From NCBI RefSeq assembly GCF_002584535.1, contig NZ_NUOT01000030.1:1-39025 (forward strand): a stretch of DNA of 39,025 bases, in the 5' to 3' direction. Both the position numbers and the translations under genes were made by a program. Below, in pieces: positions 4,168-38,458 of the stretch. Position 1 is the stretch's first letter, and the number at the start of each line of letters is the position of its first letter. The notes below the pieces were generated by a model that was not told the DNA's origin, did no database searches, and saw only the letters and a program-made list of their open reading frames with translations. The stretch comes from Bacillus cereus. GTDB lineage: Bacteria; Bacillota; Bacilli; Bacillales; Bacillaceae_G.

Positions 4168-4245
4168 CCTATCTAGATACGGATGATACACCTTATGATA
4201 GCAACATTTTACTACGTGTAGCAACCAGCATTTTGCAGCGAACCA
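4168..4245 (-). promoter_or_regulatory. Leader and promoter of CRISPR array A
   Basis: On the minus strand, TTGCTA (4224-4219) and TATCAT (4200-4195) are 18 bp apart and read into the first repeat at 4167. The segment is almost identical to the leader of array B at 10806-10888 in inverted orientation, including the last bases before the repeat (CCGTATCTAGATAGG). This conservation across two arrays is the main evidence that it is a leader. Confidence 0.8.
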
Positions 4246-4466: not shown

Positions 4467-4503
4467 AATCTTATATTAATACCAAAGATTAAGGAGGGAA
4501 ATG

Positions 4504-7828: not shown

Positions 7829-8489
7829 TGCAGCGTTACGAGTAAAGTTGTACCAACAAACTGCTTGTTACAAGAAACCAATGGCACAAAAAGCAAAGGA
7901 AACCTATCCTCTTCCACCGTATAGTACGGTGAAGGGGTTCCTTCACTATATATTAGGTGCAAATGAATTAATTCCAATGGAAATCAGCATCCAAGGTACT
8001 CACGAGGGAAAGCTATTTGATTTGCAAACACACCATTTTTACAAGTCAAAAGAAGTTACCACAATGCCCATGCATGTTCATATGTTGAAAGAAATCTCCC
8101 TTATTTTTCATGTACGTGCCGAACAAGATGTATTGGAACAATTACAGACAGCATTAGAAAATATCAATGAAGCACCAAGCCTTGGTCGACGTGAAGATTT
8201 AGCGGTCATTGAAGACGCGAAATTGGTAACGTTGAACGAAAGACATACAAAAGAAATCATTACACTCAAAAATGATCTTTATATACCACGTCATTGCATT
8301 GTTGATCGACTTGATTATATGAATTATAGAGGGATTTCATATCGTTTAAATACGGTATATCAAGTGAAACAAGGAATTCGTACTTGGGAGACGGTTCAAA
8401 CGCAGTTCTTCCGTAAAGGAGAAGGATTAAATTCACCTCAGTATATGGAAGATGAAGATGGCCATATTGTATTTTTCCATGCCTTATGA
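7818..8489 (+). CDS. cas5: Cas5 subunit (Cas5t type)
   Basis: 223 aa. Caps the 5' handle of the crRNA in Cascade. The motif PLPPYSTVKGFLHYILGA near residue 32 is the conserved Cas5 segment following the first beta strand, and SLGRREDLAVIEDAKLV near residue 130 resembles the Cas5 SLGRrE motif. The start overlaps the end of cas7 by 11 bases. Its stop codon (TGA 8487-8489) lies in the loop of a terminator-like hairpin (8477-8506), so expression of the next gene, cas3, may be partly separated from the Cascade genes. Confidence 0.9.
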   Translation: MSANAALRVKLYQQTACYKKPMAQKAKETYPLPPYSTVKGFLHYILGANELIPMEISIQGTHEGKLFDLQTHHFYKSKEVTTMPMHVHMLKEISLIFHVRAEQDVLEQLQTALENINEAPSLGRREDLAVIEDAKLVTLNERHTKEIITLKNDLYIPRHCIVDRLDYMNYRGISYRLNTVYQVKQGIRTWETVQTQFFRKGEGLNSPQYMEDEDGHIVFFHAL

Positions 8490-8506
8490 GTAGGCATGGA
8501 TTTTTT
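8477..8506 (+). terminator. Intra-operon terminator-like hairpin between cas5 and cas3
   Basis: CCATGCC (8477-8483) pairs perfectly with GGCATGG (8493-8499), 9-nt loop, followed by ATTTTTT. The cas5 stop codon is inside the loop. It has the form of a modest intrinsic terminator and would lower cas3 relative to cas6-8-7-5; ribosomes finishing cas5 would melt it, linking cas3 expression to cas5 translation. Confidence 0.6.
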
Positions 8507-8519
8507 CAGGAGGAGAAAC

Positions 8520-10805: not shown

Positions 10806-10888
10806 ATCGATGATTCGCTGCAAAATGCTGGTTGCTACACGTAGTAAAATGTTGCTATCATAAGGTGTATCATCCGTATCTAGATAGG
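10806..10888 (+). promoter_or_regulatory. Leader and promoter of CRISPR array B
   Basis: TTGCTA (10832-10837) and TATCAT (10856-10861), 18-bp spacer, point into the first repeat at 10889. Nearly identical to the array A leader in inverted orientation. Confidence 0.8.
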
Positions 10889-11175
10889 GTTTTATCTGAA
10901 CTATATGGGATTTAAAGTGTACAACGAAAATCGCAACCCACTTCATAAAACGTTTTATTTGCACTATATGGGATATAAAGTTCCGTATTAGCGCAACAAA
11001 AGAAGAGGCAAAAAGTGTTTTATCTGAACCATGTGGGATATAAATAGTCCAGAAACATATAGAATTCGATTTAATAAAACTGTTTTATCTGAACTATGTG
11101 GGATATAAAGATGGATGTTATGTATATTACACAAGGTTCTGGTGGTATTTTATCTGAACTGTATGGGATATAAAT
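10889..11175 (+). CRISPR. CRISPR array B: 5 repeats, 4 spacers, transcribed rightward
   Basis: 29-bp repeats at 10889, 10952, 11017, 11082 and 11147; spacers 34, 36, 36 and 36 bp. Repeats 3 and 4 are closest to consensus (GTTTTATCTGAAC, GTGGGATATAAA). The first has GGGATTTAAAG, the second TTTGCAC, and the last begins ATTTTA, so each carries private changes. Same repeat family as array A, so Cas6 and Cascade can serve both. Positions 11176-11297 hold no further repeat. Confidence 0.95.
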
Positions 11176-14174: not shown

Positions 14175-14789
14175 TTAGAAAACATCATTCATCACAAAAG
14201 TTCTCATAAACACATTTTGTTTTACAGCATATTGCTCTAACTTTGATTGTCGATAATCTGATAATGTGAAAAAGATAATTACTGGAACAATAGCATTCTG
14301 TCTTTTATAGATATCTGTTATATGGCCATATAACTGTATTTTGTGTTCGTTTGCTTTCATATGTTGCATGCGATCTATCTCAACAAAGTGAGGGACTTTA
14401 TCTTCAAAATAGGTTGCATCAGGAATGATTTGATATCGCTGACCACTGGTTGAAAATTCTATCGTTTGTTCTGTTTTCCATTCGGGAAATCCTAGCCACA
14501 TCCAGGCTTCGTTTCTCATTAAAATGTGCTGTAATTGACTATTTTTCTTTACTGTCCTTGTGATTCCTAATAAATCACGTCCTTTTTTGTTTAAATAATA
14601 TACATGTTCACGAGCTATTTTTGTAATGTGACAATATGGAGTCAGATCCTTTAATACACGATTTGCATTCCGAATACTTCCTAAACAGTGAATGGCTTGT
14701 AATTGTCTCCTCGTTGCAAAATCTAACTTACTCAAAGTGGATAAAATCTCGATTTGTCTCGCTTTCTGTTTGAGTGTTTGATGCCTCAT
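14175..14789 (-). CDS. Replication-relaxation family protein
   Basis: 204 aa. N-terminal winged-helix-like part (LDFATRRQLQAIHCLGSIRN, then VYYLNKKGRDLLG), then a nuclease-like middle (IIPDATYFED, PHFVEIDRMQHM) where D, E and D residues follow beta strands. This is the layout I associate with the Replic_Relax family, which accompanies FtsK/TcpA-like ATPases on Gram-positive mobile elements and is thought to act in DNA processing for replication or transfer. RBS AGGTGGTG. Its start overlaps the end of the ATPase gene by 62 bases, so the two are translationally linked. Assignment from motif memory. Confidence 0.65.
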   Translation of the reverse strand: MRHQTLKQKARQIEILSTLSKLDFATRRQLQAIHCLGSIRNANRVLKDLTPYCHITKIAREHVYYLNKKGRDLLGITRTVKKNSQLQHILMRNEAWMWLGFPEWKTEQTIEFSTSGQRYQIIPDATYFEDKVPHFVEIDRMQHMKANEHKIQLYGHITDIYKRQNAIVPVIIFFTLSDYRQSKLEQYAVKQNVFMRTFVMNDVF

Positions 14790-15909
14790 TTTGTTTCACC
14801 ACCTTGTATTGCTTCAGTAATTCCCACATGTCCATATCCTTTAAATAAGGTACCTGAATTTCCTCTGTGCGATCAGTCTTAAATAATGCTCTTCCTGGAA
14901 GGGAAGGCAGATCTTCAAGACCTGGTTCGTCTAAAGCAACTTGTGAAGCAACCGCTGTTGGTAATCGAAACCCTAGCTTTGCATCAGCATTTTGTTTGAT
15001 TTGCCTTGGCAATGTATCAGAGGTTGGATATTGGGTACAAAATATAAGCCGGAATCCTAAACCACCTCCAATTCTTGCGATTTCAGATAACATCTCCTGG
15101 CACATAAATAATAAATCCCGTTGTTTTTTAGGTAAACCTTGTGTCGGACAAAGGTTCGCTCCTTCATCTACTATGATGAAACAACGTTCTCTAATTGATG
15201 TGTCTATAACATTGGTAAAATAGGAATTTTTCATCATCTCAATCTGTTTTACCATCTTTTCACGTACTCTCACCAACATCTCTAACGCCTGTTCCGGGTT
15301 TTCAGCTACTTCTACTACTTGAGACAGATCCTTGTAAGGACTAAATTCTAATCCTTCCTTCAGATCAATAATAAAAAACTTCACATGTCGAGGTTGTTGT
15401 AAAATTAAACTCGTCATCACATTTTTTAGAAATACTGTCTTTCCAAAACGTGTCATACCCGCTACGCACATGTGCGGTGTTTTCTCGAAATCATGATATA
15501 CGTGTTTATCTAACGATTTCCCCATCATAACTCTCCATGTGTGCTCCTTTAGTAGATCCTTAGACCAATTCCACACTTCAGGTATTTGTTGCTTAAATAC
15601 TCGAATATGAAGTTCCCTTTGATGAAACGATATTTTAACAGGTTTATATAGTCCTTCTTCTAATACTTCAGCTAACTTTTTAATAAGTTGACTAGGTACA
15701 CCTAAAGGTAGCTTGTAGACATAATTCATACTTATGTTATCTTCTATTTCTTTTAAAAAAATGGGGTATTGTAATTCTCCTTTATGCTGAACACATATCT
15801 TTGTAATTTCAAAAAACGTGGCGATTTTTTTCTTATCACTCATTTCTTTTCCCTTATAAAAATAAGCAACAGTAAAATAGGTTGCTGGTATTAATAAAAG
15901 TGATATCAT
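14728..15909 (-). CDS. FtsK/SpoIIIE-type DNA translocase (TcpA-like coupling ATPase)
   Basis: 393 aa. Walker A-type segment MCVAGMTRFGKTVFLKNVMT, Walker B CFIIVDEGANLCP, and LIFCTQYPTSDTLPRQIKQN as the sensor region typical of FtsK/HerA ATPases of conjugative elements. A short N-terminal hydrophobic stretch (LLLIPATYFTVAYF) suggests membrane attachment. It probably delivers plasmid DNA to the transfer channel. The ATG at 15909 is chosen because AGGAGG (15925-15920) is ten bases away; the ATG at 15918 is one base from it. Downstream neighbour is the replication-relaxation protein. About 100 bases separate it from the small membrane protein upstream. Confidence 0.85.
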   Translation of the reverse strand: MISLLLIPATYFTVAYFYKGKEMSDKKKIATFFEITKICVQHKGELQYPIFLKEIEDNISMNYVYKLPLGVPSQLIKKLAEVLEEGLYKPVKISFHQRELHIRVFKQQIPEVWNWSKDLLKEHTWRVMMGKSLDKHVYHDFEKTPHMCVAGMTRFGKTVFLKNVMTSLILQQPRHVKFFIIDLKEGLEFSPYKDLSQVVEVAENPEQALEMLVRVREKMVKQIEMMKNSYFTNVIDTSIRERCFIIVDEGANLCPTQGLPKKQRDLLFMCQEMLSEIARIGGGLGFRLIFCTQYPTSDTLPRQIKQNADAKLGFRLPTAVASQVALDEPGLEDLPSLPGRALFKTDRTEEIQVPYLKDMDMWELLKQYKVVKQNEASNTQTESETNRDFIHFE

Positions 15910-16009
15910 ATCCTCCATACCTCCTTTAGGTAGTTGAGCCTGTATGGAAGATTACAAAAAATAGATTAAGACGCACTATTACAATTATTTTCAACTACCA
16001 GATGTAATA

Positions 16010-20448: not shown

Positions 20449-20800
20449 TGTGAACTACCCGCCACTTAAATTCTAACGAATTTTGAAGTGGGAGCTTCTC
20501 AGTTCCGCGACGAGAGCAACCTTTCGTCTCCCTGAGCGTTACTTCGGGTTATTCCATCCCTAGATGTCCAACGCTTGGACGTTCTTTTTTACGGTTGATA
20601 TTTTACGCAGGAACCGAATGGCTTGGTTTTCGCACTCTGTTTTCTTCCTGCAACCTTCTATATCAAGTTATCAAAGAACTTCATATGTCTAGTTTATCAA
20701 AAGTTTTTAGCTAACGCCAAACCGAAATTCATCTCCCACCTAGCGTTGGACTATCGCGTTGCACACGCTTGAGGAAGGAGAATTCTTTCGGATAACACGT
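20449..20800 (-). mobile_element. IS200/IS605-type right end resembling an omega-RNA, tnpB missing
   Basis: Read leftward, the segment ends with GAGAAGCTCCCACTT, a short loop, AAGTGGCGGGTAGTTCAC, the stem-loop I know from the right ends of tnpB-bearing IS605 elements, where it is the 3' scaffold of the omega-RNA (guide RNA of TnpB). Upstream, GGTTGCAGG and CCTGC can pair and CCAAGCCATTCGG is in the loop region. It is richer in GC than its surroundings. Stop codons break all frames, so no tnpB or tnpA is present. It adjoins the last iteron, whose sequence would be the guide position. Confidence 0.55.
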
Positions 20801-22593: not shown

Positions 22594-23031
22594 TTAATTA
22601 CCAAATAAACTTGCTGTATCAAGATCTTCATATTCATCATTCAAAACATTTGTTTCAGATTTAGAAACGTCTTCTTTTTTTACATCTTCATTATCCGACT
22701 TCTCTTCAGAAGCCTCAATTTCTTCATTAGGAGATTTTATCTCATTTTGGGTATTTTGGTCATCATTTTTGATAATGAGATTTGTATCATTCAATAGGAC
22801 CCGTTTAACCTCATTTAAAAAATCTTTATCTTGAAGTAAGATCTCTCTTTGCATTTGTTGTTGAATCTTATAATCACCAACATCTTGTAAGCCATGTTTA
22901 TCAATAAAGTAACAGACAAGTTTATATAATGAATCTGCTATATTCCCTTGAGATTCAAACCATTTAAAGAATTCCTCGTTCTCAATTTTTTTGAGATTCC
23001 AAAAGAAAGATTCTCTTTTCTTGTCAGCCAT
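22594..23031 (-). CDS. parR: ParR-type partition adaptor
   Basis: 145 aa. N-terminal 75 residues are basic/helical and would form the DNA-binding part (KKRESFFWNLKKIENEEFFK). Residues 85-135 are a very acidic, low-complexity tail. The last residues LDTASLFGN after the acidic stretch look like the short C-terminal helix by which ParR contacts ParM filaments. ATG lies one base after the parM stop, with AAAAGGTGAG inside parM as RBS. The gene order parM-parR with a repeat site upstream matches type II partition loci. Identity rests on context and architecture. Confidence 0.7.
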   Translation of the reverse strand: MADKKRESFFWNLKKIENEEFFKWFESQGNIADSLYKLVCYFIDKHGLQDVGDYKIQQQMQREILLQDKDFLNEVKRVLLNDTNLIIKNDDQNTQNEIKSPNEEIEASEEKSDNEDVKKEDVSKSETNVLNDEYEDLDTASLFGN

Positions 23032-23032
23032 A

Positions 23033-24220
23033 TTATCTCACCTTTTTTCGAGTAAGAATTTTCTTGATTACTTGCATCCCTCTAGCATTCATATCTACAG
23101 CATATTTTTCTGGAATCCACAATAAGTACATACCAACTTGCTCACAGTACTCTAATAATTGGTTATATAATTCATCTTTAAAAGTAACACTTCCCCCACC
23201 GTATACACATAAAATTTCAGCTTCACTAGCTGTATTACTTACATATTTTTCACTTGTATCTTCTAAGATAAGCTCAGCTTGTTCTACTTTTGTGATATTA
23301 AAATACCCAGTTGCTTCCTCATGATATTTATGATCTGAGTCTTGAAGGATTTGTGAAAATTGTTGACGTTTAATATTTGTTCCACGTTCTTGGTTTAATA
23401 GCTTAACAGCTTCTTCTGTAGCATGCCCAACTCCACGTCTTTCTCCACTACAAGCATCAATTACTGGATTTACGCCAACTGTGTATATATACTCAGTTGT
23501 TCCATCTCCAATGTCACTATGTAAGATCTTTTTGTTCTTAAAGAATCCCTTTTTTACTGTTTCTACTTCAAGTTTGTCTTTATATAGTTTAATAAAATCA
23601 CTAAACATATCTTCTTCGCCTTCAAGGATTGCATATAAAGGAGGAACACCTTCTTGGGTAATGTTTGCGCTGTTAAATGTTAAGCTGACTGTTACTTGTT
23701 CTTCCCCTACATAAACAACTACAACATGATTTGAATTAGTAAAACGTTGCTCTAGATGCTTAGCATTTACAGGTGTCCATTGGCTTGCTGGAATAGCTGA
23801 AATAAGATCAACAGTCACGTTAATTGATTGTGGCAGTTGTTCCGTTCTTTCCCACTCAATCTGAACTGATTTATTTGCAATAAGTCCTAGCAAATTAATT
23901 AACGGCAAATCATCGTTATATTTTTGGCCTACTTTAATGTTCATGTTTTTGGGGTTCTTCCCTGTTAGCATCGCTCGATTACCAATAAAGTACATCCCAG
24001 ATCTTCTAATCGATTTACTAGCAATATTTACAAACATATTATCTACTAGATTAAGCACATTTTTTTGAGTGTTTGTTTCTGTTACATTTGGCATTGAGTA
24101 AACGCTTTGATATACGTTTTTCATTTTTATGTATTCACCATTAATGTAACCTTTAAAAGAATCGTTCCCAATATCGCCTTCAATATCTATATGAAGAGTT
24201 TTCCCTTTTAAATCTTTCAT
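23033..24220 (-). CDS. parM: ParM-type actin-like plasmid segregation ATPase
   Basis: 395 aa. Polymerises to push or pull plasmid copies apart. Actin-fold landmarks: HIDIEGDIGNDSF (phosphate 1) near residue 10, DIGDGTTEYIYTV (phosphate 2) near 240, and ILCVYGGGSVTF (adenosine loop) near 335. The phosphate 1 loop is unusual (DIEGDIGN rather than D-x-G), which may mark a divergent ParM subgroup. RBS AGAGGTGATG. First gene of the leftward parMR operon; candidate parC is upstream at 24432. Actin-like plasmid proteins have been described from B. thuringiensis plasmids such as pBMB67; I could not compare sequences. Confidence 0.85.
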   Translation of the reverse strand: MKDLKGKTLHIDIEGDIGNDSFKGYINGEYIKMKNVYQSVYSMPNVTETNTQKNVLNLVDNMFVNIASKSIRRSGMYFIGNRAMLTGKNPKNMNIKVGQKYNDDLPLINLLGLIANKSVQIEWERTEQLPQSINVTVDLISAIPASQWTPVNAKHLEQRFTNSNHVVVVYVGEEQVTVSLTFNSANITQEGVPPLYAILEGEEDMFSDFIKLYKDKLEVETVKKGFFKNKKILHSDIGDGTTEYIYTVGVNPVIDACSGERRGVGHATEEAVKLLNQERGTNIKRQQFSQILQDSDHKYHEEATGYFNITKVEQAELILEDTSEKYVSNTASEAEILCVYGGGSVTFKDELYNQLLEYCEQVGMYLLWIPEKYAVDMNARGMQVIKKILTRKKVR

Positions 24221-26599: not shown

Positions 26600-27154
26600 T
26601 TAGTTTCGATTAAATAAACGTTGAATGAACGTTTTTTTACTGTTATCTTGTTGTTCTTGACGATCCTCATTTAACAATTGAATAGCTTTATCCAGTTTTT
26701 CCTGTAGTAACTGAATTTGTGAATCCTTTTCTTCCTTTTCTGAGCGTTCTTGTAATAATAAATTAATAATATCTTGGTTTTGTTGTACGATTTTTTCTTG
26801 TTGGTTAAACATATAGGAAAACTTATCTTGGATTAATGAAATATCTGTTTGTGAACGTTTCTGAAGTGTTACTTCAGTTTCCTTTTCTTCCTGAACGCTA
26901 TCCGTTTTCGGGACGTTTTCTTCGTTTGTCTCCATGCTTCGTGTAGCGGCCTCTTCTAATTTCCAGTTTTGATTTAGGTATTCCTTCATTTGTTTTAAAA
27001 TATCTATATCATTTTCATAATAAATTCGTTGGTTACGTTCATTTCTTTCAAATATATACTCCATTTTTTCTAGTTCAATTGACCATCTGCGAAGTGTATT
27101 AGTGTTTATATCCAGTTGCTTTGCTACTTCTTGTGCAAAATATCCATATTCCAA
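26600..27154 (-). CDS. MerR-like HTH protein with coiled coil (DUF3967-type)
   Basis: 184 aa from TTG 27154, RBS GGAGGTG six bases away. Residues 1-65 form a MerR-type winged helix (FAQEVAKQLDINTNTLRRWS, then RIYYENDIDIL). Residues 105-165 are a long charged coiled coil (EEKDSQIQLLQEKLDKAIQL). The end, KKTFIQRLFNRN, is a short basic amphipathic helix as in DUF3967 proteins of B. cereus plasmids and could bind membrane or a partner. The plan resembles TubY, the third protein of tubulin-type partition loci, and RacA. It lies among the GAACGC palindromes, one of which falls inside the gene (26893-26916), so these may be its sites. Confidence 0.7.
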   Translation of the reverse strand: MEYGYFAQEVAKQLDINTNTLRRWSIELEKMEYIFERNERNQRIYYENDIDILKQMKEYLNQNWKLEEAATRSMETNEENVPKTDSVQEEKETEVTLQKRSQTDISLIQDKFSYMFNQQEKIVQQNQDIINLLLQERSEKEEKDSQIQLLQEKLDKAIQLLNEDRQEQQDNSKKTFIQRLFNRN

Positions 27155-28322: not shown

Positions 28323-29291
28323 TTAATTACTTTCTTCTAAAAAATTATAGAAAACAAATTCTCTTTTTTTATTTGTACCATGTAGGGATTTCTTTTTTAA
28401 TGCGTTCTGATTTCTTCTTTCCCAGTTTTGTTTAGACTTTTGCCCAAACATTTTTATAAAATGTGCAGGATTGCTATTTTGAGCTTTATTGTATTGAAAC
28501 CATTTTACACATTCTTCAAAATCCCATCTAGCATAGCGATCGATATAAGGTGGCATCCTTAAAGCAATTGTGTATGCATCTTTTTCACTAAGGTGATTTA
28601 ACTCTTGACTTAAAATGTAGTAATAAGCCTTTTTCTGATCCTCACTAAGATAGTCGTCTAAATCTTGTAATCTGTTAGTCTTTTCTTTTAATTTACAATC
28701 TGTATTTGATTTTTCTTGTTTGTTTACACTGAAAATATCTACAGAATTAGACGAGACTTGTATATCATTTTTTATATCTTCGTGATTGGCTACAAAATTT
28801 TTCTTAAAGAGTTTCTCACTCAGAAATTTAGTGAAAGTAGAGCATACATCAATTGCTACAGCCCATTTCACCTTGAAATATTCAATGATTTTTAAGTAAT
28901 TGTTATGTAGAGTTAAAATGTAAATTGAAGGGGCAATTTTACCATGTCTTCGTACTTTGACTTGTTGGCACACTCCCAGGTCTTGTAACCAATTAAAAAC
29001 GTAGTTAATAATTGGCTTTGAAATACCTGTTTTTTTGCTGATATGCTCTTGTTTTACTTGAGAATATCCTTCTTGTACCAAGTATGATAAAACTGTTTCT
29101 AAAGCTTCAAATTTTCGTGGTGTAAGGTAATCTTTTGTAGTAACACCTTCACATTCTAGGACAATATTATCAATATAAGTAGTAACTTTCTTGATTGCTT
29201 GATTAATAGCCCCAGGTGTTTTGGATAAGTGTTTGATTCGGGGACTTAATTCGGCCTTTGCTCGACTGAGCAAAAAGTTTTGAAGTAACAC
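28323..29291 (-). CDS. Winged-helix protein, possible replication-type regulator
   Basis: 322 aa. Residues 50-110 form a wHTH (PRKFEALETVLSYLVQEGYS, then ISKKTGISKPIINYVFNWLQ), followed by a wing-like QVKVRRHGKIAPSIYIL. The C-terminal part (DAYTIALRMPPYIDRYARWD) recalls the ends of DnaD/RepA-like plasmid proteins. GTG 29291 is chosen because AGGAGG lies seven bases upstream (29304-29299); an ATG further out at 29360 would add a hydrophobic leader without RBS. A divergent small RNA starts about 40 bases upstream of its promoter. Function not assigned; replication or copy control is possible. Confidence 0.55.
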   Translation of the reverse strand: MLLQNFLLSRAKAELSPRIKHLSKTPGAINQAIKKVTTYIDNIVLECEGVTTKDYLTPRKFEALETVLSYLVQEGYSQVKQEHISKKTGISKPIINYVFNWLQDLGVCQQVKVRRHGKIAPSIYILTLHNNYLKIIEYFKVKWAVAIDVCSTFTKFLSEKLFKKNFVANHEDIKNDIQVSSNSVDIFSVNKQEKSNTDCKLKEKTNRLQDLDDYLSEDQKKAYYYILSQELNHLSEKDAYTIALRMPPYIDRYARWDFEECVKWFQYNKAQNSNPAHFIKMFGQKSKQNWERRNQNALKKKSLHGTNKKREFVFYNFLEESN

Positions 29292-29360
29292 AAAAAAACC
29301 TCCTATTTTCCCACTAAACACACACAGAAAAAACATGAAAAAATAGAGGTTCTTATTCAC

Positions 29361-29384
29361 ATTATATGCACCTTATGGTATAAT
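29361..29384. promoter_or_regulatory. Divergent promoter pair
   Basis: TATAAT on the plus strand at 29379-29384 (TTATGGTATAAT) drives the candidate small RNA; TATAAT on the minus strand at 29366-29361 drives the wHTH gene. The -10 boxes are 12 bp apart, so the two polymerases cannot sit at the same time and expression should be mutually exclusive. Confidence 0.55.
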
Positions 29385-29390
29385 TCTAAC

Positions 29391-29506
29391 TATAAGTGAA
29401 CATTTAAAAATGTGAAATAAGACCCATACTATTCTTGGAGTTTTAAATTGGTATCTAGTTTGGCGACAGGAACCAATCTAAAACTGAGTGTAGTGGGTTT
29501 TTTTTG
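29391..29506 (+). ncRNA. Candidate structured small RNA
   Basis: About 115 nt from the TATAAT at 29379 to a T-run at 29498-29505. Two nested stems: outer ACCCATACT (29422) with AGTGTAGTGGGT (to 29498), which with the T-run forms a terminator; inner AGTTTTAAATTGGT (29439-29452) with ACCAATCTAAAACT (29472-29485), 13 of 14 paired. The apical loop is ATCTAGTTTGGCGACAGGA. No coding frame. It could be a copy-control or antisense-type RNA, or an aptamer-like leader. Confidence 0.55.
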
Positions 29507-29990
29507 TTTATATATCTTTTAAAATCATTTCTCTCTAAAAAATACAATCTTTCTTTTTATATTATATTGTTATCAATATAATATCAATCCCCTTAGGTAG
29601 GTTTTGTTATCCCCTGTGTGAAAATCCATGCTAATTCTTTATTAAAATATGGTTCGTAGGAAGTGATTTTTTTGGTTAAAAATAACTGAATTTTCAGTAA
29701 TATAATTAGAAACATTTTTAAGATAGGTGGTGTATACATAACTATAAGGGCTTCATGTTAAAATAATTCTAATTATATAATTTATGAGGAAGCGATATTA
29801 AGTTTAAACATAATGACAAGACAAATCTTCGTTACTTTGACTGTATATTGATATCAAAGTGTCGATTGCCCAATTACAATAGCAATTTATTAGCTTACAA
29901 GAATATGTCAGAGTGTTATACCATAATTAAGAACTTTTTTCTGTAATTAATATTGGATAATGTATCTTGTGCTTGGAAGGGGGAATTACA
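29507..29990. other. Intergenic region upstream of aimR-like gene
   Basis: No gene. Contains a GATAAT box (29956-29961) about 30 bases before the TTG start and several short repeats (TGATATCAA near 29850, AATATCAA near 29580). Likely the place for promoter and operator of the arbitrium-type operon; no clear AimR site could be recognised. Confidence 0.3.
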
Positions 29991-31133
29991 TTGGAGAATT
30001 TAATGAAAAAATTGTTGAAGCTTAAAGTGGACAAGAAAATAAGTAGTAGGAAACTTGCAAAGGAAATTGGCAGCAGTAAAACTACGATTGATAACGGGCT
30101 TCAATGTAAAACAGATGAGTTTAAATTTGAAGTATTCTTAAAGCTAATTCAGTCCATTTGCGATAGTCCTGAAGAGAAAAGACAAATGATTCATGAATAT
30201 ATTCTTCTATGTAAAACTCCATTAAATGTACGGAAGGCATTATGCTATTGCCAAGCAATGGGTGAATACGATTTAATAAAAAAAATTATAGAAGAACATG
30301 CTGAGACAAAGGGATTAAAGAAGTATTTAGCTGTTTATAAGATTCAAAATAAGAGAAATCAAAATATTGCAAGAGGACAACAACTTCTTGATGAAATTTA
30401 TGCAAAAGATTTTTCATCAGATACCGATTGTCAAGCGGCCTTGAATATTTTGTATATGGAAGCCATGTATGATAAGCAAAATTACAATGCTATTATTCCA
30501 CATGCTGATCGTATGGAAGCTAACTTAAAAGAGATAAAACAGGACTATATTAAGCAGTGTTTACAAATGAAATATAAAGAACGGTTAGCTTATATATACT
30601 TAATGAGAAATGATCTAGAAAGGTGTCGGAATACATGTTATGAAATTTTAGATTCTGAGATGGATATTTCTATAATTAAGGCCACAGCCTGGTGTTGCTT
30701 AGGGGAAAGTTTTATATTTGAATGCCCGTATACAGCTGAAAAGTACATTAAAAGGGCGATTTCTTTATGTGAAAATATAGAAGTCCCACAAAAAACACAA
30801 AAATATCTTGCCTTTCATACTACGCTAGCACACTTGTATATAGAAAACGGTATAAATCTAGATAAAATTAGGTTTGATCTTATTCATACATCTGAAGAAG
30901 CATTTTATGAGTGTATGCATGGTGATTGGGAAAAAGGAATAAAATTATACGAGGGATTGAGGAAATATGGAAAGGAATTTACCGCTTTTCAGCAGTATTC
31001 GTTTTCTAAAGTAAATAATGATATAATAGGATTAAAGAAATCCTTGGAATATTTCGAATTAACAGGTAATATATTTTACTCGCAATATGTCAAGAATGAG
31101 CTATTAAAAGAAGAGGTGAAGTCAAGTGAATAA
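29991..31133 (+). CDS. aimR: AimR-type arbitrium peptide receptor and DNA-binding regulator
   Basis: 380 aa from TTG 29991 (RBS GAAGGGGG seven bases upstream), close to the 378-386 aa of phage AimR. N-terminal helix-turn-helix (ISSRKLAKEIGSSKTTIDNG) near residues 15-34, then helical TPR-like repeats (NIARGQQLLDEIYAKDF; KERLAYIYLMRNDLERCRN; AEKYIKRAISLCENIE). This is the plan of RRNPP receptors. The decisive point is the neighbour: a small secreted pre-peptide overlapping its stop codon, and no phosphatase or protease context. In SPbeta-group phages AimR activates aimX until bound by the mature peptide. Here the flanking genes are of plasmid type. Other RRNPP families (Rap, PlcR, NprR) differ in length or domains. 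Confidence 0.8.
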   Translation: MENLMKKLLKLKVDKKISSRKLAKEIGSSKTTIDNGLQCKTDEFKFEVFLKLIQSICDSPEEKRQMIHEYILLCKTPLNVRKALCYCQAMGEYDLIKKIIEEHAETKGLKKYLAVYKIQNKRNQNIARGQQLLDEIYAKDFSSDTDCQAALNILYMEAMYDKQNYNAIIPHADRMEANLKEIKQDYIKQCLQMKYKERLAYIYLMRNDLERCRNTCYEILDSEMDISIIKATAWCCLGESFIFECPYTAEKYIKRAISLCENIEVPQKTQKYLAFHTTLAHLYIENGINLDKIRFDLIHTSEEAFYECMHGDWEKGIKLYEGLRKYGKEFTAFQQYSFSKVNNDIIGLKKSLEYFELTGNIFYSQYVKNELLKEEVKSSE

Positions 31134-31272
31134 ATACTTTGTCGTTACGTTATATACTGTAATGATATTGACATCGTTTTTTCAATCAGAAACAGAAGAA
31201 TCACAACATGCAAAATCACTAGAGACAAATAAATATGTTATGAATATGAAGGTTGATCCCGGAGGCGGATGA
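31126..31272 (+). CDS. aimP: AimP-type signalling peptide precursor
   Basis: 48 aa from GTG 31126, which overlaps the end of aimR by 8 bases; RBS AAGAGGTGA. It has a signal peptide (NKYFVVTLYTVMILTSFF), a charged linker (QSETEESQHAKS), and the C-terminus MNMKVDPGGG. By analogy with phage AimP, the last six residues would be the exported and re-imported signal: VDPGGG. It differs from the XXXRGA form of SPbeta/phi3T peptides but has the glycine-rich end. A stop directly after the peptide and a terminator at 31286 fit the family. Confidence 0.75.
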   Translation: MNKYFVVTLYTVMILTSFFQSETEESQHAKSLETNKYVMNMKVDPGGG

Positions 31273-31285
31273 GCCGTTTAAATGA

Positions 31286-31316
31286 AAAAGACGCTACTAA
31301 CAAGTAGCGTCTTTCG
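31286..31316 (+). terminator. Terminator after aimP
   Basis: AAAGACGCTACT pairs with AGTAGCGTCTTT, 3-nt loop, T's following (CGTACTTTTT). It separates aimRP from the 35-aa ORF; read-through here would express that ORF. Confidence 0.75.
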
Positions 31317-31409
31317 TACTTTTTAAGAGTGGTTCACTATTTAATAACAGAAAAATTTCGTGCCAATTAAAAACATAAATAATTAAGTAAAATACGGGAG
31401 GAACACAAA

Positions 31410-31517
31410 ATGAATTTTAATCAAGAATGGTTTAATGAGATGATTGATAAGGACAAACAAATTTTAGAAACTTATCGTGAATTATTACTTTTAATTGAAA
31501 GTTTCCAAGAGCAATAG
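31410..31517 (+). CDS. 35-aa ORF in the aimX position
   Basis: MNFNQEWFNEMIDKDKQILE and onwards to SFQEQ. GGGAGG is nine bases before the ATG. Acidic, fully helical with leucine spacing (ILETYRELLLLIESF) that would suit a small protein-protein interaction peptide. It lies after the aimP terminator and ends six bases before the convergent repressor gene. Phages carry aimX, the AimR-controlled switch output, in this place; no sequence similarity is claimed. It could also be antisense-active RNA against the repressor transcript. Confidence 0.5.
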   Translation: MNFNQEWFNEMIDKDKQILETYRELLLLIESFQEQ

Positions 31518-31959: not shown

Positions 31960-32042
31960 TTCTCTTTAAGTGGAAAATATTCACCTTTAGGATAAAAAAC
32001 TTTCCCGAAAGGATTGACATTCTACTTTTAGGAGAATAGAAT
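31960..32042. promoter_or_regulatory. Control region between repressor and Cro-like gene
   Basis: Rightward promoter TTGACA (32014-32019) and TAGAAT (32037-32042), 17-bp spacer, near consensus. AAGTGGAAAATATTCACCTT (31968-31987) is a partial dyad and CTTTCCCGAAAGG (32000-32012) a smaller one directly before the -35: both are operator candidates for the divergent XRE proteins. Confidence 0.65.
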
Positions 32043-32062: not shown

Positions 32063-32272
32063 TTGACCGTGTTACGCTATATTAGGGAATCAAAAGGTCT
32101 TACAATTCAAGAGGTATCTGAGGCCTCTGACATACCTGTAAAAACTCTATATCATATTGAAACTGGTAAAAAGGGACTTATCGAGAAACGTGCAAAAGTT
32201 CTTGCTGATCTCTTTAATGAACCCATTGAAAAAGTATTTTTTGCTACGTACTATAGAGCAAAATTAGAATGA
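32063..32272 (+). CDS. Small XRE-family regulator (Cro-like)
   Basis: 69 aa from TTG 32063, RBS GGGGGTGAG. Helix-turn-helix LTIQEVSEASDIPVKTLYHI, then ETGKKGLIEKRAKVLADLF. Single-domain like Cro. Opposed to the 130-aa repressor, so the two could form a bistable switch. No terminator is seen between it and the adhesin gene 150 bases on, so the switch may reach the surface protein and transfer genes. Confidence 0.75.
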   Translation: MTVLRYIRESKGLTIQEVSEASDIPVKTLYHIETGKKGLIEKRAKVLADLFNEPIEKVFFATYYRAKLE

Positions 32273-32425
32273 AACATTTCTTAGCGTTACACAATTATAC
32301 ATTTATATTGTAAATCAGTAATGAAGAAAAGGTACAATTTTATTTTTATTTTTTTAGCTTTTAAATCTGAAAATTCTGATTTTAGTTCTTTGAAAACTGC
32401 ATATCATATGAGGGAGCTGTTAGTC

Positions 32426-34666
32426 ATGTTGAAACGATCGTATCAAATGATACTCATTGCTATGAGTATGCTTCTAGTTGTTCTGAATTTTGTATTTCCA
32501 CTGACAAAGGCGAGTGCTGAAGTCATTAATCGTGAGAAATATGAAATGAATTGGAGTTATAGCCCCATGTACGGGAAAGAACTGCGGACAGAATTACTGA
32601 AGAATACAAATGGTCAAATTGCGTATTGCTTAACGTATGGAAAACTCAGTCCCGATGGCAATGATCTTCCAGAGATGGGGCGCACACATGATATTGTGTA
32701 CCGTGTTCTTCTAAATGGATATCCACAAAAGAGTCCAGAAGAACTAGGTGTTGCTAGCTGGAAAGAGGCGCATTATGCAACACAAATTTCTGTTTGGGCG
32801 GCATTAGGGCAAATTGATATCGACAAAATTGAGCATCGAGATGCAGGTGTTGCAAAAGCAGTAAAGACCATCATTGATGGAGCGAATACAAGTCAAGAAA
32901 CACAAGAACTGTACATGAATGTAACACCAACAGACAATCAAGAAGCAAAATTAAACGGTGAGTACTTTGAGACGACAACCTATCAAGTAGAAAGTAATGC
33001 AAAGAACGGTGTATTTACGGTACAACTATCCAATGCACCAAATGGAACAAAAGTTGTTTCAACAAAAGGAGAAGAGAAACAACAGTTCAACTTAGGAGAA
33101 CAATTCCGTATTCTTGTACCAAAATCCTCTCCAAGTGGTACGTTTTCCTTGAAAGTATCCTCTAACCTTTCTAAATTGCATGCAGTAGCTTACAAAGGTA
33201 CTGATAAGGTGCAAGATGCAACGGTCTTATTAGAAAGAAACGAGGAAAAAGTAAGTACTGATCTACAAGTATACTGGAAATCCCTTGGTGGATTGAAGGT
33301 TGTAAAAGTAGGTGAGAAAAAAGAAGTGTTACAAGGTGCTGTATTTGAAGTTTTCAACAGTGCAAACGAAAAGGTAGGTACGATTACTACCAATGAGGAG
33401 GGGACAGCGAGCCTTTCTGGTTTAGAAGCTGGGAAGTATACTTTAAAAGAAGTAAAAGCTCCTACTGGCTATGTAGTGAATAATAAACCTCAAATACTTG
33501 AAGTGAAGACTGGTGAAGTTGCAACCATCACAGTAGAAAATGCAAAAGTAAAAGGGAATATCGAGATTAAGAAATTGAGTGATAGTGGGAAAGTTCTTCC
33601 AGGCGTAGAGTTCACTGTGTATCAAGGCGAAAAAGAAATCACCAAGACCACTACAAATGAGAAAGGAATTGCCCAAGTAAAAGATCTTCCTTACGGAGAT
33701 TACTACTTTGTCGAGACAAAAGGTGTGGAAGGACATATTTTAAACAAAACAAAGTATCCATTCCAAATAAAAGAACAAGGGAAGACACTTACTTTCACAG
33801 TGGAAAACAAAGAAGTAAAAGGAAATGTGAAACTTCTTAAGGTGGATGCAGAAAATCCAGATAAGAAATTAGAAGGAGCAACATTCATCCTTCAAGATAG
33901 CAAAGGAAAGAAAATTAGCGAACACAAAACAGATAAAAACGGCATGATTGAAGTTACGAATGTACCGTTTGGGTCATATCAGTTTGTCGAAAAGCAAGCG
34001 CCAAAGGGATATGTTCTTTCGAAAGATCCAATTCCTTTTAACATCTCTGAGAATGACAAAACACTTACATTAACGGCTAAAAATAAGCAAATCACAGGTT
34101 CTCTTATCATTACAAAGGTGGACGTAGCTAAAGGGAATAATAAACTCCCAGGAGCAGAGTTCACAATCTATGATGAGCAAGGAAAGGAAGTCGTGAAAGG
34201 TAAGACAAATAAAGAGGGGATTGCAACATTTGAAAAACTTCCGGCTGGAGAGTACACATACCGTGAAACGATTGCGCCAGACGGATATTTAATTAACGAA
34301 GAAACATTCCGTTTCGAAATAAAAGAGGACGGCCAAATTATCAAACATACAGTAAAGGATGAAAAGAAACCGACACCACCTACACCAGAGACTCCACAAA
34401 AACCGGAACATCCAGAAACACCACAACCACAGACACCAGAACAACCAAAAGTAACGGAACAATCAGTTACACCACAACCAGAGACACCACATAAAATCAT
34501 TACACAACCACAACAAGAACAAACACCAAAGAAAGTAGAAAATAATCTTCCTACAACTGGCGGTAAAGCTGAAAATCCATACATAAAATGGATTGGAATT
34601 GTATGTGTCGTACTTGGCGCAATTGGAGCTGTATTTGCAGTAAGGAACCGCAAAAAAGCTCAATAA
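32426..34666 (+). CDS. LPXTG-anchored adhesin with thioester and Cna-B domains
   Basis: 746 aa. Signal peptide 1-32 (ILIAMSMLLVVLNFVFPLTK, cleaved near ASA). Thioester-type domain: Cys in IAYCLTYGK (about 66) and Gln in YATQISVWAAL (about 119), the pair that makes an internal thioester binding covalently to host or cell-surface proteins. Four Cna-B/SpaA-like domains start near 290, 377, 467 and 558 (for example GNIEIKKL, GSLIITKV), each with an E-containing TV(E)N or ET/APxGY segment suited to isopeptide bonds. Pro/Thr-rich wall spanner 650-700, then LPTTGG, membrane helix and KK tail for sortase. ATG 32426 chosen for the signal peptide and GGGAG upstream. Likely cell-cell contact in mating or host adhesion. 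Confidence 0.85.
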   Translation: MLKRSYQMILIAMSMLLVVLNFVFPLTKASAEVINREKYEMNWSYSPMYGKELRTELLKNTNGQIAYCLTYGKLSPDGNDLPEMGRTHDIVYRVLLNGYPQKSPEELGVASWKEAHYATQISVWAALGQIDIDKIEHRDAGVAKAVKTIIDGANTSQETQELYMNVTPTDNQEAKLNGEYFETTTYQVESNAKNGVFTVQLSNAPNGTKVVSTKGEEKQQFNLGEQFRILVPKSSPSGTFSLKVSSNLSKLHAVAYKGTDKVQDATVLLERNEEKVSTDLQVYWKSLGGLKVVKVGEKKEVLQGAVFEVFNSANEKVGTITTNEEGTASLSGLEAGKYTLKEVKAPTGYVVNNKPQILEVKTGEVATITVENAKVKGNIEIKKLSDSGKVLPGVEFTVYQGEKEITKTTTNEKGIAQVKDLPYGDYYFVETKGVEGHILNKTKYPFQIKEQGKTLTFTVENKEVKGNVKLLKVDAENPDKKLEGATFILQDSKGKKISEHKTDKNGMIEVTNVPFGSYQFVEKQAPKGYVLSKDPIPFNISENDKTLTLTAKNKQITGSLIITKVDVAKGNNKLPGAEFTIYDEQGKEVVKGKTNKEGIATFEKLPAGEYTYRETIAPDGYLINEETFRFEIKEDGQIIKHTVKDEKKPTPPTPETPQKPEHPETPQPQTPEQPKVTEQSVTPQPETPHKIITQPQQEQTPKKVENNLPTTGGKAENPYIKWIGIVCVVLGAIGAVFAVRNRKKAQ

Positions 34667-34692
34667 TTTAAAGTATGAAAGGAGAGAAAGAC

Positions 34693-35268
34693 ATGCTAGG
34701 AGTCATTCAAAGGTGCTCAGGGCTTCTACAGGCAATGAAGAGTTCGAATCGTGAGAAAAAGGGTGTAGATGTAATTAGAGCGTCCCAAGAGGCGTATCAA
34801 ACAGTAATAGAGGGGGTAAGAAAAGCAGAACAGAGATTTATCTTCATTTTTGATCCCACGGGTCAATTTTACAAAGATACACATCAACAGAAATTAAAAC
34901 AAGGCTATCGCATTGTAAAGTATGATTTGTTAAGCGAAACAGTTTCTTTAGATTATGAAGATCATCAAAAGGTTGTCACGTATATCAGCATAGATACAAG
35001 TAATAGTACCTATGAAGATCGAGGAGAAGCGTTATCTCATTATCTTCATTTTCTAACAGAGAAGAAGAAAATTAGACCGATACATCTAGTATTTTATCAA
35101 TTCAATCTTTACCCCATCCCTCATATGGAGCAGTTTTTAAAGAAAAGTGCTACCTATAATATTCGAACTTCCATCGTAGTAGAATCTCATTCCGTTTTAC
35201 AACGTATATACGGAAAACATGGAGCAAACCGAATTACTACCTCATGTCAGACAACGGTTCTAGCATAG
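34693..35268 (+). CDS. Shrunken VirD4-like protein lacking ATPase motifs
   Basis: 191 aa; ATG 34693 with AAAGGAGAG six bases upstream. Two stretches look like VirD4/TraG coupling proteins: FIFIFDPTGQFYKDT with GYRIVKYDLL (family: TDPKGELYE...GYxVxVLDL) and, near residue 135, PIHLVFYQFNLYPIPHMEQF with VLQRIYGKHGANRITTSCQT (family: DEFxxxGxIPxxxxxL...LxxxYGxxGAxxIxxNC). The Walker A is absent and the Walker B DE pair is replaced by YQ. So it is probably a non-catalytic relative that may regulate or assemble a coupling complex. The similarity is judged from memory of the family. It follows the adhesin gene by about 26 bases. Confidence 0.5.
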   Translation: MLGVIQRCSGLLQAMKSSNREKKGVDVIRASQEAYQTVIEGVRKAEQRFIFIFDPTGQFYKDTHQQKLKQGYRIVKYDLLSETVSLDYEDHQKVVTYISIDTSNSTYEDRGEALSHYLHFLTEKKKIRPIHLVFYQFNLYPIPHMEQFLKKSATYNIRTSIVVESHSVLQRIYGKHGANRITTSCQTTVLA

Positions 35269-35406: not shown

Positions 35407-35655
35407 ATGGGAAAAGAGCAGAGACTTGCATTCTATGATATATCGTCGTCACGTGCACAAAGTGTCAAAACATTCGATGGCAAAGTGTATCAGTTAAAAG
35501 GAGCGGTAGCGATAGAACATACAACAGGAAACATTGAAAGGGTTGCAGAGATCTATTACCGTGTCCGTTCAGTCATGGATGAAAAGCAAAAAGTAATTGC
35601 CAAGAGAAGAAACCAGGATGATGAATTGACGACTGTGTGCCAACGACGGAAATAA
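35407..35655 (+). CDS. Hypothetical small protein
   Basis: 82 aa, MGKEQRLAFYDISSSRAQSV onwards; basic C-terminus (VIAKRRNQDDELTTVCQRRK). Strong RBS GAAGGAGG. Mixed alpha/beta, no membrane segment, no family recognised. It ends just before the inverted repeat at 35670. About 140 bases without features separate it from the VirD4-like gene. Confidence 0.5.
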   Translation: MGKEQRLAFYDISSSRAQSVKTFDGKVYQLKGAVAIEHTTGNIERVAEIYYRVRSVMDEKQKVIAKRRNQDDELTTVCQRRK

Positions 35656-37372: not shown

Positions 37373-38458
37373 ATGTTAGAAGTCATGTTTACCAAAAGCA
37401 CAATACCAGAGATTAAAAGTTTTCAAAAGATGTCGTTGCAGGATGCTTGTAAGATTTCGTACCAACTCGAAAAAGCCTTACAGGAACAAGAAAATATTGT
37501 CCATGTAGATTTTCATATTTTAGATCAAGACAATGAGTTGTATGCAGGGACATTGTCTCTAGGAGCTGGTTATGCTTCACATTTGTATGAACATGTAGAA
37601 AATAAACTGTCTACCATGGAAATGGATGAGGAACAAGAGGAACAAAAAGAAGAGCTGTTAGAACTGATGAAACAAGATATTGAAGGATTTTTGCAAGAGA
37701 TTGCTCCACCTAAAGAGGTAAAGGAACCAAAAGAAAACAACAGAGCTAGAGAGAAACAACATGTTAACGAAGAGCTTACCTTAGAAAAAAGAAACAAGAA
37801 TAAAAAACATCTATTCCAAATTATCGGAGGAGCGGTTAGCGGGATTGTAGTAGGAGCTATAAGTGTTTTTTCCTTATATACTGTCCCAACGAATTCAGTT
37901 GAAGCAAGAACCGATCAGCCGGATACGCATTTAGTGAAAGGACTTCAACAAGCTTCTATTCAGCAATATCCAAAGGCAATTCAAGAGTTTGAGAAATTGG
38001 ACTATAAAGGGTTAGATAAAGAGAGTCAAAAAGCAGTCTTATTCTCTTATTTATTAAGCGGAAAGGCAACTAAGGCCATACAGTATGAAGCGAAATTTGC
38101 AGAGAGTGTTGTAGCTTACTATATCGGAATCGACAATATAAAAAAAATAAATGAAATTGACGTTAAAAACGATGTGATTGATTTTGAAAAGGCGGCACTT
38201 AATAAAAAATATAAAGATGTGATTCGATTAAAAACAAAGGTCAATATGGATGGTAGACGTGAAAAGCTTGTAGCTGAAGCCTATGTGAATCAGAAAAAAT
38301 TTGATGATTGCTTTGCCTTTGCAAAAACACAAGGAAATAAAACTCTTATGAAAGAGGTAAAAGAGTTGCAAAAAAAGGACGTGGGGCAATCCACTCTTAG
38401 TGAAGAAGAAAAGAAAGCAAAAATCGAAAAAATTGATAAGGAATTAAGCGAAATCTAA
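37373..38458 (+). CDS. Single-pass membrane protein with TPR-like outer domain
   Basis: 361 aa. Residues 1-80 form an alpha/beta domain (EVMFTKSTIPEIKSFQKMSL, VHVDFHILDQDNELYAGTLS) reminiscent of LPD25-like domains in transfer proteins. 80-140 is charged coil, then a membrane helix (IIGGAVSGIVVGAISVFSLY) near 160. Residues 180-361 are helical repeats (AIQEFEKLDYKGLDKESQKA; YVNQKKFDDCFAFAKTQ) of TPR type. Cytoplasmic domain, one helix, outer helical repeats: the plan of EssB/YukC in type VII secretion, although no relation is shown. RBS GGGAGGAGG. Probably part of the conjugation apparatus. Confidence 0.55.
   Translation: MLEVMFTKSTIPEIKSFQKMSLQDACKISYQLEKALQEQENIVHVDFHILDQDNELYAGTLSLGAGYASHLYEHVENKLSTMEMDEEQEEQKEELLELMKQDIEGFLQEIAPPKEVKEPKENNRAREKQHVNEELTLEKRNKNKKHLFQIIGGAVSGIVVGAISVFSLYTVPTNSVEARTDQPDTHLVKGLQQASIQQYPKAIQEFEKLDYKGLDKESQKAVLFSYLLSGKATKAIQYEAKFAESVVAYYIGIDNIKKINEIDVKNDVIDFEKAALNKKYKDVIRLKTKVNMDGRREKLVAEAYVNQKKFDDCFAFAKTQGNKTLMKEVKELQKKDVGQSTLSEEEKKAKIEKIDKELSEI

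Follow-up and report, generated by a model that had tools for sequence, protein, structure and literature searches.

AimR and AimP genes in the window

The window analysed here is the full 39,025-nucleotide (nt) stretch of Bacillus cereus contig NZ_NUOT01000030.1, and all coordinates refer to it. A sequence-only reading of this DNA had placed an arbitrium pair, the receptor AimR and its propeptide AimP, between Rep and ParM-like plasmid genes on one side and XRE, adhesin and type IV secretion-like genes on the other. The follow-up analysis agreed with this layout, left little doubt that the locus is an AimR/AimP pair and detected, between the pair and the XRE gene, a hairpin and a second small open reading frame (ORF) that were absent from the earlier reading. 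Two plasmids of Bacillus arachidis strain YX15 recur as comparisons, namely, unnamed1 (L001, the closest relative) and unnamed2 (L002). The features of the cassette were as follows.

29991 to 31133, plus strand: aimR, 380 amino acids (aa) from a TTG start; matches to NF038310, PF22871 and phrog_1728
31126 to 31272, plus strand: aimP propeptide, GTG start, 48 aa, C-terminal end KVDPGGG; match to phrog_2682
31287 to 31314, plus strand: terminator-like hairpin with a 12-bp stem and a T-rich tail; proposed target of AimR antitermination
31315 to 31400, plus strand: stretch expected, by analogy with phi3T, to hold an AimR site; a few AT-rich inverted pairs, none convincing
31410 to 31517, plus strand: small ORF, proposed aimX; 35 aa, GGGAGG before the ATG, 80% identical in L001
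31524 to 31916, minus strand: XRE repressor-like protein, 130 aa; PF01381 at E 1.5e-15; 88.6% identical in L001 and 40% in L002; proposed transfer repressor
32014 to 32042, plus strand: TTGACA-17-TAGAAT promoter-like site with 11 of 12 consensus matches, identical in L001; proposed transfer promoter

The open frame of aimR extended from 29967 to 31133 on the plus strand, with a product of 376 to 388 aa depending on the start. The most likely start is the TTG at 29991, closely preceded by a Shine-Dalgarno-like GGAAGGGGG, and gives 380 aa; the B. arachidis annotation places the start at the equivalent of window position 30003. AimR scored 373.7 bits against the NCBIfam AimR equivalog NF038310 (cut-off, 70; residues 22 to 379 covered), 114.8 bits against the Pfam AimR family PF22871 (cut-off, 26.7) and 361 bits against phrog_1728; for scale, AimR of phage phi3T scored 265.6 and 389.9 with the first two models. 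The N-terminal helix-turn-helix (HTH) region, residues 13 to 60, was recognized by HTH_50 (E 0.0016) and HTH_26 (E 0.019), both under cut-off. A single-sequence search of PDB chains with the window AimR returned nothing relevant. When a profile of five plasmid AimR proteins was searched against the PDB, four distinct sequences of solved AimR proteins ranked first (E 1.7e-20 to 1.7e-18), and the other 7 of the 11 matches were HTH proteins (HipB, SlmA) matched via the N terminus. A best match to another RRNPP receptor, which the sequence-only reading had named as the competing outcome, did not occur: Rap, NprR and PlcR were rejected as identities, there being no such model at E ≤ 1 and no such PDB structure by profile. 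A single-sequence structure model of AimR was poor, with a predicted local distance difference test score (pLDDT) of 45.5. Comparison of aimR between the window and L001 gave a nonsynonymous divergence (dN) of 0.034 and a synonymous divergence (dS) of 0.57, which indicated strong constraint on the receptor gene.

The 5' end of aimP overlapped the 3' end of aimR by 8 nt, and the N-terminal stretch of the propeptide was hydrophobic, in line with the earlier description of an overlapping, secreted pre-peptide; secretion is predicted from the sequence. The hydropathy of this stretch over 15 residues was 2.05, the lowest of eight propeptides compared, and that of phi3T AimP was 2.59. The propeptide matched phrog_2682, a family of unknown function, at E 3.2e-5. 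The mature peptide is probably the last five or six residues, about (V)DPGGG. Ten loci, with a 1.4-kb overlap between two of them, contained 1079 ORFs of 35 to 60 aa; 7 of these ended in DPG plus 0 to 6 residues, and all 7 lay directly 3' of an aimR gene at a distance of ≤217 bp. All seven AimR loci examined encoded a C-terminal DPG, phi3T (RGA) standing apart, and a widespread DPG motif in peptides of the AimR subfamily is described in PMC12700828. The pairing of aimR with aimP is more than chance because the receptor scores far exceed the cut-offs, the propeptide matches phrog_2682 and DPG-ending ORFs occurred only 3' of aimR genes. The propeptide gene itself drifts: between the window and L001, dN was 0.098 and dS was 0.167 with the last six residues unchanged, 15 random changes gave as few aa changes and no stop with a P value of 0.127, and constraint on aimP as a whole was not demonstrated.

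Hairpin, small ORF and convergent XRE gene

The hairpin began 14 nt after aimP, and the small ORF lay 95 nt beyond the hairpin and ended 6 bp from the stop of the convergent XRE gene. In the window, no sigma-70-like promoter was detected on the plus strand in the interval separating the hairpin from the small ORF, which fits read-through, and no terminator was found between the small ORF and the XRE gene. When the window stretch was shuffled, 0.9% of the shuffles yielded an ORF of ≥33 aa preceded by a ribosome site, and the range across loci was 0.9 to 5.8%; this is a lenient test since the list of ribosome-site motifs was chosen after the sequences had been viewed.

Recurrence of the gene order on plasmids

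Searches with tblastn using the window AimR found five loci among 72,556 plasmid records, and the AimR of L002 added one, giving a total of six (L001, L002, L003, L004, L007 and L014); together with the window, these make up the seven AimR loci. The same search of 50,697 phage records found none, and searches of the phage records with the AimR proteins of L002 and L004 were likewise negative. This null result reflects divergence and not absence because the search misses phi3T's own AimR, which is present in the collection. Viral contigs, scanned with a Rep alignment and with three AimR proteins as queries, contained no further relatives, and two scans of genome contigs likewise produced none.

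The order aimR-aimP-hairpin-small ORF-convergent XRE gene was present in six of the seven loci (the window, L001, L002, L004, L007 and L014), and a hairpin of 12 to 23 bp was found in the same place in all six loci tested. A T-rich tail followed the hairpin in the window, L001, L004 and L007; it was less pronounced in L002 and lacking in L014. Across the six loci, the small ORF was 33 to 67 aa long, the gap from aimP to the small ORF was 108 to 139 bp and that from the small ORF to the XRE gene was 1 to 41 bp. The seventh locus, L003, did not have this order by its ORF lists, an integrase-like gene being next. On this marine Bacillaceae C02 plasmid, an oligopeptide-binding ORF (6427-7680, OppA-like by sequence reading) stood just upstream of aimR, and aimR had an in-frame stop in the record.

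A 10.7-kb alignment of the window with L001, starting inside Rep and reaching approximately the right end of the window, showed 89.6% identity. The AimR proteins of L001 and L002 were 92% and 21% identical, respectively, to that of the window, but the adjoining HTH, XRE, Rep and SpaA proteins of L002 were 35 to 54% identical. Behind the repressor gene, the window, L001 and L002 all carried an HTH gene, a thioester domain (TED)/SpaA adhesin gene and transfer genes. A divergent HTH gene was also detected in L007; in L004 and L014, its place lay beyond the stretch examined. The L001 record continued on the same strand with VirD4, a pLS20_p028-family protein, DUF5592, VirB4, a lytic transglycosylase and a MobP2 relaxase, and L002 carried TcpC, TcpE and an AAA_10 (VirB4-like) ATPase, a machine unlike that of L001. 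The label "conjugative-type", applied below to the window, L001 and L002, is a reading of their gene content.

Records L004, L014 and L007 pointed to phages. L004, which carries terminase, portal, capsid and tail genes, is a phage-plasmid; L014 had tail, holin and amidase genes; and L007, which is probably a phage-plasmid, had RecU, methylase and ArpU genes in the stretch examined and a MOBM relaxase according to MOB-suite. Phage-plasmids NZ_CP064061, NZ_CP047395 and probably NZ_CP015437 shared with the window the gene order, DPG peptides and some related backbone genes, and differed from it in having phage genes in place of type IV secretion system (T4SS) genes and small ORFs of 62 to 67 aa that were not detectably related to the window's. 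The small ORFs of L004 (9604-9807), L007 (11449-11643) and L014 (21400-21588) were mutually related (P at most 0.0063), with a pattern like DGxLYLDDLL shared by those of L007 and L014; they had no Pfam match at E ≤ 0.01, and their PHROG matches were at chance level only. The AimX protein of phi3T resembles MazE. Mimicry by each small ORF of its own XRE protein was considered as a candidate mechanism and rejected: P values were 0.02 for the window, 0.05 for L002 and 0.07 for L014, and there was no support in L001 (0.37), L004 (0.71) or L007 (0.87).

An AimR tree of eight sequences, two of them fragments, gave firm support only for the pairing of the window with L001. The grouping of conjugative-type versus phage-plasmid receptors had support of 73/59, so one and several recruitments of arbitrium are indistinguishable. 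FtsK, Replic_Relax, ParM and DUF3967-like genes were partly common to conjugative-type and phage-plasmid records (window 14175-15918, 22594-24220 and 26600-27154), and an integrase was common to L002, L004 and L007. The ParM of L001 was nearer to that of L004 (35%) than to that of L002 (24%), and no L001-window ParM match was obtained at E ≤ 0.01. The Rep genes of the two kinds of record had no detectable kinship.

Comparison with phi3T, pLS20 and other systems

The sequence-only reading had presented arbitrium as a system of SPbeta-like phages. Plasmids and conjugative elements, which it left out, are also named as carriers in print (PMC10769878, PMC8612738, PMC9765709 and PMC6669507); a propeptide candidate is reported for 97% of plasmid AimR genes (PMC9765709), and clade 7, cited in PMC6669507, includes conjugative elements. 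Plasmid-borne arbitrium is therefore already known, and what is less ordinary is the anatomy, with a hairpin, a small ORF and a convergent XRE gene. No literature pairing AimR with type IV secretion or with a relaxase was found, nor, by titles and abstract openings, a functional account of plasmid arbitrium, in a search that most subscription papers lay outside.

In phi3T and SPbeta, a terminator precedes aimX, and AimR works there as a transcriptional antiterminator. The aimX gene of phi3T codes for a protein of 51 aa, no promoter of its own having been located downstream of the terminator, and AimR is disabled by AimP; a cis-antisense action of aimX had long been assumed for phages (PMC10769878). 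Like the window, phi3T had a receptor matching the AimR model, a propeptide gene just 3' of aimR and then a hairpin followed by a small ORF with its own ribosome site and no evident promoter between them. The differences lay in the peptide, which ends in RGA in phi3T and in DPGGG in the window, and in what follows: plus-strand ORFs come after aimX in phi3T, whereas in the window a sequence-unrelated small ORF runs into a convergent XRE gene and adhesin and transfer-like genes stand behind the cassette. In phage B83, which can exist as a plasmid, XRE genes flank AimR, AimP and a small ORF (PMC6669507).

Plasmid pLS20 offered a parallel on the side of transfer. In that plasmid, Rco represses the conjugation promoter; apo-Rap lifts this repression, and Phr* reinstates it (PMC7430634). 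Its genes were found in the same order as in the window, with a Rap receptor gene on the plus strand, a phr ORF ending in QKGMY on the plus strand, an HTH repressor gene on the minus strand and then transfer genes on the plus strand, a thioester protein being near their head. The T4SS of the window's closest relative was collinear with that of pLS20 (VirD4-p028-DUF5592-VirB4-lytic transglycosylase-MobP2), and all 8 of the 8 transfer proteins tested from this stretch (L011) matched pLS20 in the same order; the run in the window is truncated by the window's end at 39025. The receptors differ, that of pLS20 being a Rap and that of the window an AimR of another RRNPP subfamily, and the window has an additional hairpin and small ORF. 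At the control end, the resemblance to pLS20 lies in gene order and logic rather than in demonstrated homology.

RapH_N was present in pLS20 and had no match in the records behind L001 and L002. A survey was made of 12 records, comprising pLS20, the B. arachidis plasmid and 10 records chosen for variety among 60 of 685 plasmid records with a CD1115-type VirD4, the B. arachidis plasmid itself being among the 685; for RapH_N, the record behind L002 was added. AimR was found in 1 of the 12 and RapH_N in 3 of the 13, so that AimR in this place is rare among the few records surveyed. A further parallel is provided by the plasmid pheromone systems PrgX/PrgQ and TraA of Enterococcus, of which PrgX regulates pCF10 conjugation (PMC9765709, PMC10075063). 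These systems share with the window a plasmid-borne RRNPP receptor and a peptide and are set apart from AimR by description, belonging to another clan with five TPRs (PMC12700828).

Proposed control of transfer

The window contains the parts from which a switch could be assembled: a member of the AimR family, a pheromone gene, a hairpin, a small ORF, an XRE gene convergent with it and a promoter-like site ahead of adhesin and transfer-like genes. The synteny with L001 and L002 and the analogy with pLS20 and phi3T suggest a role in transfer, and we consider it probable, if narrowly so, that the plasmid cassette would act as an off-switch, with a low level of peptide permitting transfer and a high level restoring repression. 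The earlier proposal that the peptide governs contact and transfer functions is thereby carried part of the way, since the gene order recurs on two B. arachidis plasmids with a same-strand run into transfer genes and has an apparent counterpart in pLS20.

In outline, AimP would be exported, trimmed to about (V)DPGGG and reimported. While AimP is scarce, AimR would let transcription from aimR-aimP pass through the hairpin into the small ORF, as in phi3T; such read-through is proposed because the window has the phi3T parts in the same order and no plus-strand promoter from the hairpin to the small ORF. The small protein, or the read-through RNA running antisense into xre, would then weaken the XRE repressor, and the TTGACA/TAGAAT promoter would fire the HTH, adhesin and T4SS genes. 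Once neighbouring cells already carried the plasmid, AimP would build up, AimR would be inactivated, transcription would end at the hairpin and the XRE protein would silence transfer. The peptide would have the same sign as in phi3T and ICEBs1, where it represses the infective form (PMC8055654), and the logic would be that of Rap-Phr-Rco in pLS20 with a receptor of another RRNPP subfamily.

A number of observations weigh against this model. The release of the XRE repressor is its weakest step because AimX of phi3T acts via MazF and phi3T_93 and the master repressor is not bound (PMC10769878). Constraint on the small ORF of the window was weak (P 0.087), and the conjugative-type small ORFs were not detectably akin to phi3T AimX or to their phage-plasmid counterparts. 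MOB-suite classed the record of L001 as mobilizable, that of L002 as nonmobilizable and neither as conjugative, and transfer genes beyond 39025 are predicted from synteny with L001. When ten window proteins were compared with the first 40 kb of pLS20, the sole match was a 79-aa protein, and neither the XRE protein nor the adhesin had detectable similarity to this part of pLS20. Of the SPbeta AimR residues that anchor the peptide, N202, R228, T236 and D360 (PMC6458997), the first three appeared by eye to be replaced, in an alignment made weak by identities to the window of 18 to 27% outside L001. The place of D360, in the same unsure alignment, was occupied by N in the window and by D or N in the other plasmid AimR proteins. 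The anchors for an RGA peptide are seemingly not kept, as one might expect of a DPG peptide.

Finally, no AimR operator was identified in the window, the candidate pairs being AT-rich and not conserved with L001. In SPbeta, the operator lies between aimP and aimX and is made up of two inverted boxes of 6 bp with a spacing of about 25 bp (PMC6458997). The window had three perfect 6-mer inverted pairs at spacings of 20 to 34 (shuffled mean, 0.69) and two pairs with 7-of-8 arms (shuffled mean, 0.88), and the canonical 6-25-6 arrangement was absent. The phi3T control of this search gave no perfect pairs; by eye, its left arm AAGTTC stood against GAACAT. Inverted pairs at suitable spacings were present in L007 (TAGTTT-25-AAACTA and TTTAAG-25-CTTAAA), L001 (TTTTTA-24-TAAAAA), L004 (an 8-bp pair at a spacing of 22) and L014.

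The divergent arrangement of Rep and aimR in the window, L001 and L002 raised the alternative that the pair mainly controls replication or copy number through the Rep promoter region (29361-29990), with the transfer genes as accidental neighbours. In L004, L007 and L014, the Rep side is occupied by a gene of 404 to 459 aa that a small HTH gene separates from aimR, but the 404- to 459-aa genes had no homology to the window Rep (hhalign probability, 0.1), and the conserved hairpin, small ORF and XRE gene lie on the other side of aimR from Rep; we regard this explanation as unlikely. A host toxin-antitoxin route like that of phi3T, in which the small protein would target MazF or a comparable partner with only an indirect effect on transfer, would draw on the inhibition of MazF by the 51-aa phi3T AimX (PMC10769878) and on the 35-aa ORF standing in the same place in the window. 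The window ORF had no detectable similarity to AimX (P 0.25), however, and the adjoining convergent XRE gene offers a shorter route than MazF, making this alternative quite unlikely.

The B. arachidis plasmids bear on a third alternative, that the receptor listens chiefly to peptides of coresident arbitrium elements, plasmids or prophages, and not to those of its own kind. Strain YX15 harbours two plasmids with AimP ends of RVDPGGG and RMDPGGGL, and the window AimR was 92% identical to one of the two receptors and 21% identical to the other; self-signalling is nevertheless the simpler account of a propeptide gene that overlaps aimR, and this alternative is very unlikely. Least likely of all is that the cassette is a phage-plasmid leftover without a role in transfer, its virion genes having been replaced by transfer genes, since shared FtsK, Replic_Relax, ParM, DUF3967-like and (in L002) integrase genes of some records are outweighed by the strong constraint on aimR and by a gene order kept in L002 despite its distant AimR.

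Returning to the off-switch model, a wider form of it, put forward tentatively and with somewhat less conviction, is that arbitrium is a portable decision module which would govern lysis on phage-plasmids and pLS20-type and Tcp-type conjugation on plasmids sharing backbone families, replacing Rap-Phr there as a gauge of carrier neighbours. If true, a single pheromone language for "spread or stay" would be common to viruses and conjugative plasmids of related hosts, and cross-talk between these elements would be testable, two such plasmids being present in one B. arachidis strain. The locus also poses a specific question, namely, whether AimR antitermination into the small ORF releases the repressor of a transfer promoter. 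The coresident YX15 plasmids, with very different AimR proteins but peptides ending in RVDPGGG and RMDPGGGL, are a natural case for cross-talk.

Neighbouring genes and other features of the window

The genes flanking the cassette were as follows.

28323 to 29360, minus strand: Rep, a relative of "Replicase RepFR55", divergent from aimR; 76.7% identical by tblastn to the RepFR55-annotated protein of unnamed1 and 53.2% to that of unnamed2
32063 to 32272, plus strand: small HTH protein, 69 aa, Cro-like by position; PF01381 at E 1e-8
32321 to 34666, plus strand: SpaA/thioester-domain LPXTG-like adhesin; PF17802 at E 1.5e-84, PF08341 TED at E 2.9e-13
34675 to 35268, plus strand: 197-aa protein with a TraG/TraD C-terminal (CD1115 VirD4-like) segment; PF12696 at E 1.7e-6
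35407 to 35655, plus strand: pXO2-34-like protein; PF17362 at 20.9 bits, below the cut-off of 30.8; 98.8% identical to L001
36239 to 36953, plus strand: a 149-aa and a 79-aa protein, functions unknown, within the run of same-strand genes; 92.6% and 83.5% identical to L001
36979 to 37272, plus strand: VirB2-like T4SS pilin; PF18895 at 25.3 bits (cut-off, 26.6) and PF04956 at 22.4 bits (cut-off, 27.9), both below
37373 to 38458, plus strand: LPD25-like protein, the last large plus-strand gene in the window; PF18840 at 26.2 bits, below the cut-off of 27; 96.4% identical to L001

The adhesin, which starts at 32321 or about 100 nt later, was 91% identical to that of L001 and 55% identical to that of L002. 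The 197-aa protein with the TraG/TraD segment scored 37.1 bits with NF045973, far under the cut-off of 250, and the 79-aa protein was the one that matched pLS20, at E 4e-7. The earlier statement that phage structural genes are lacking held for the 30 window proteins used as queries, among which no capsid, terminase, portal or tail Pfam family was found at cut-off. Two terminase matches fell short of the proteins' own HTH and FtsK matches: the XRE protein resembled the HTH of a terminase small subunit below threshold (E 0.018), and the FtsK-like protein matched a terminase large subunit in PHROG (E 6.6e-6).

A type I-B CRISPR locus was present at 3422-4170, 4501-10715 and 10883-11174, with Cas6, Cas8b1/Cst1, Cas7/DevR, Cas5b and Cas3; the cas genes lay between two oppositely oriented arrays, the first of about 12 repeats and the second of 5, and neither cas1 nor cas2 was detected among the window proteins scanned, a subset of the ORFs. 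A search with the first of the two arrays gave no plasmid match, and one of its spacers had a 33-nt match (93.9%, E 5e-4) to a phage of Pectobacterium, an unexpected host. A segment of 309 bp at 20483-20791 was 89.1% identical to Klebsiella grimontii plasmid CP079755, which is odd for a Bacillus-like plasmid and perhaps reflects a shared mobile element.

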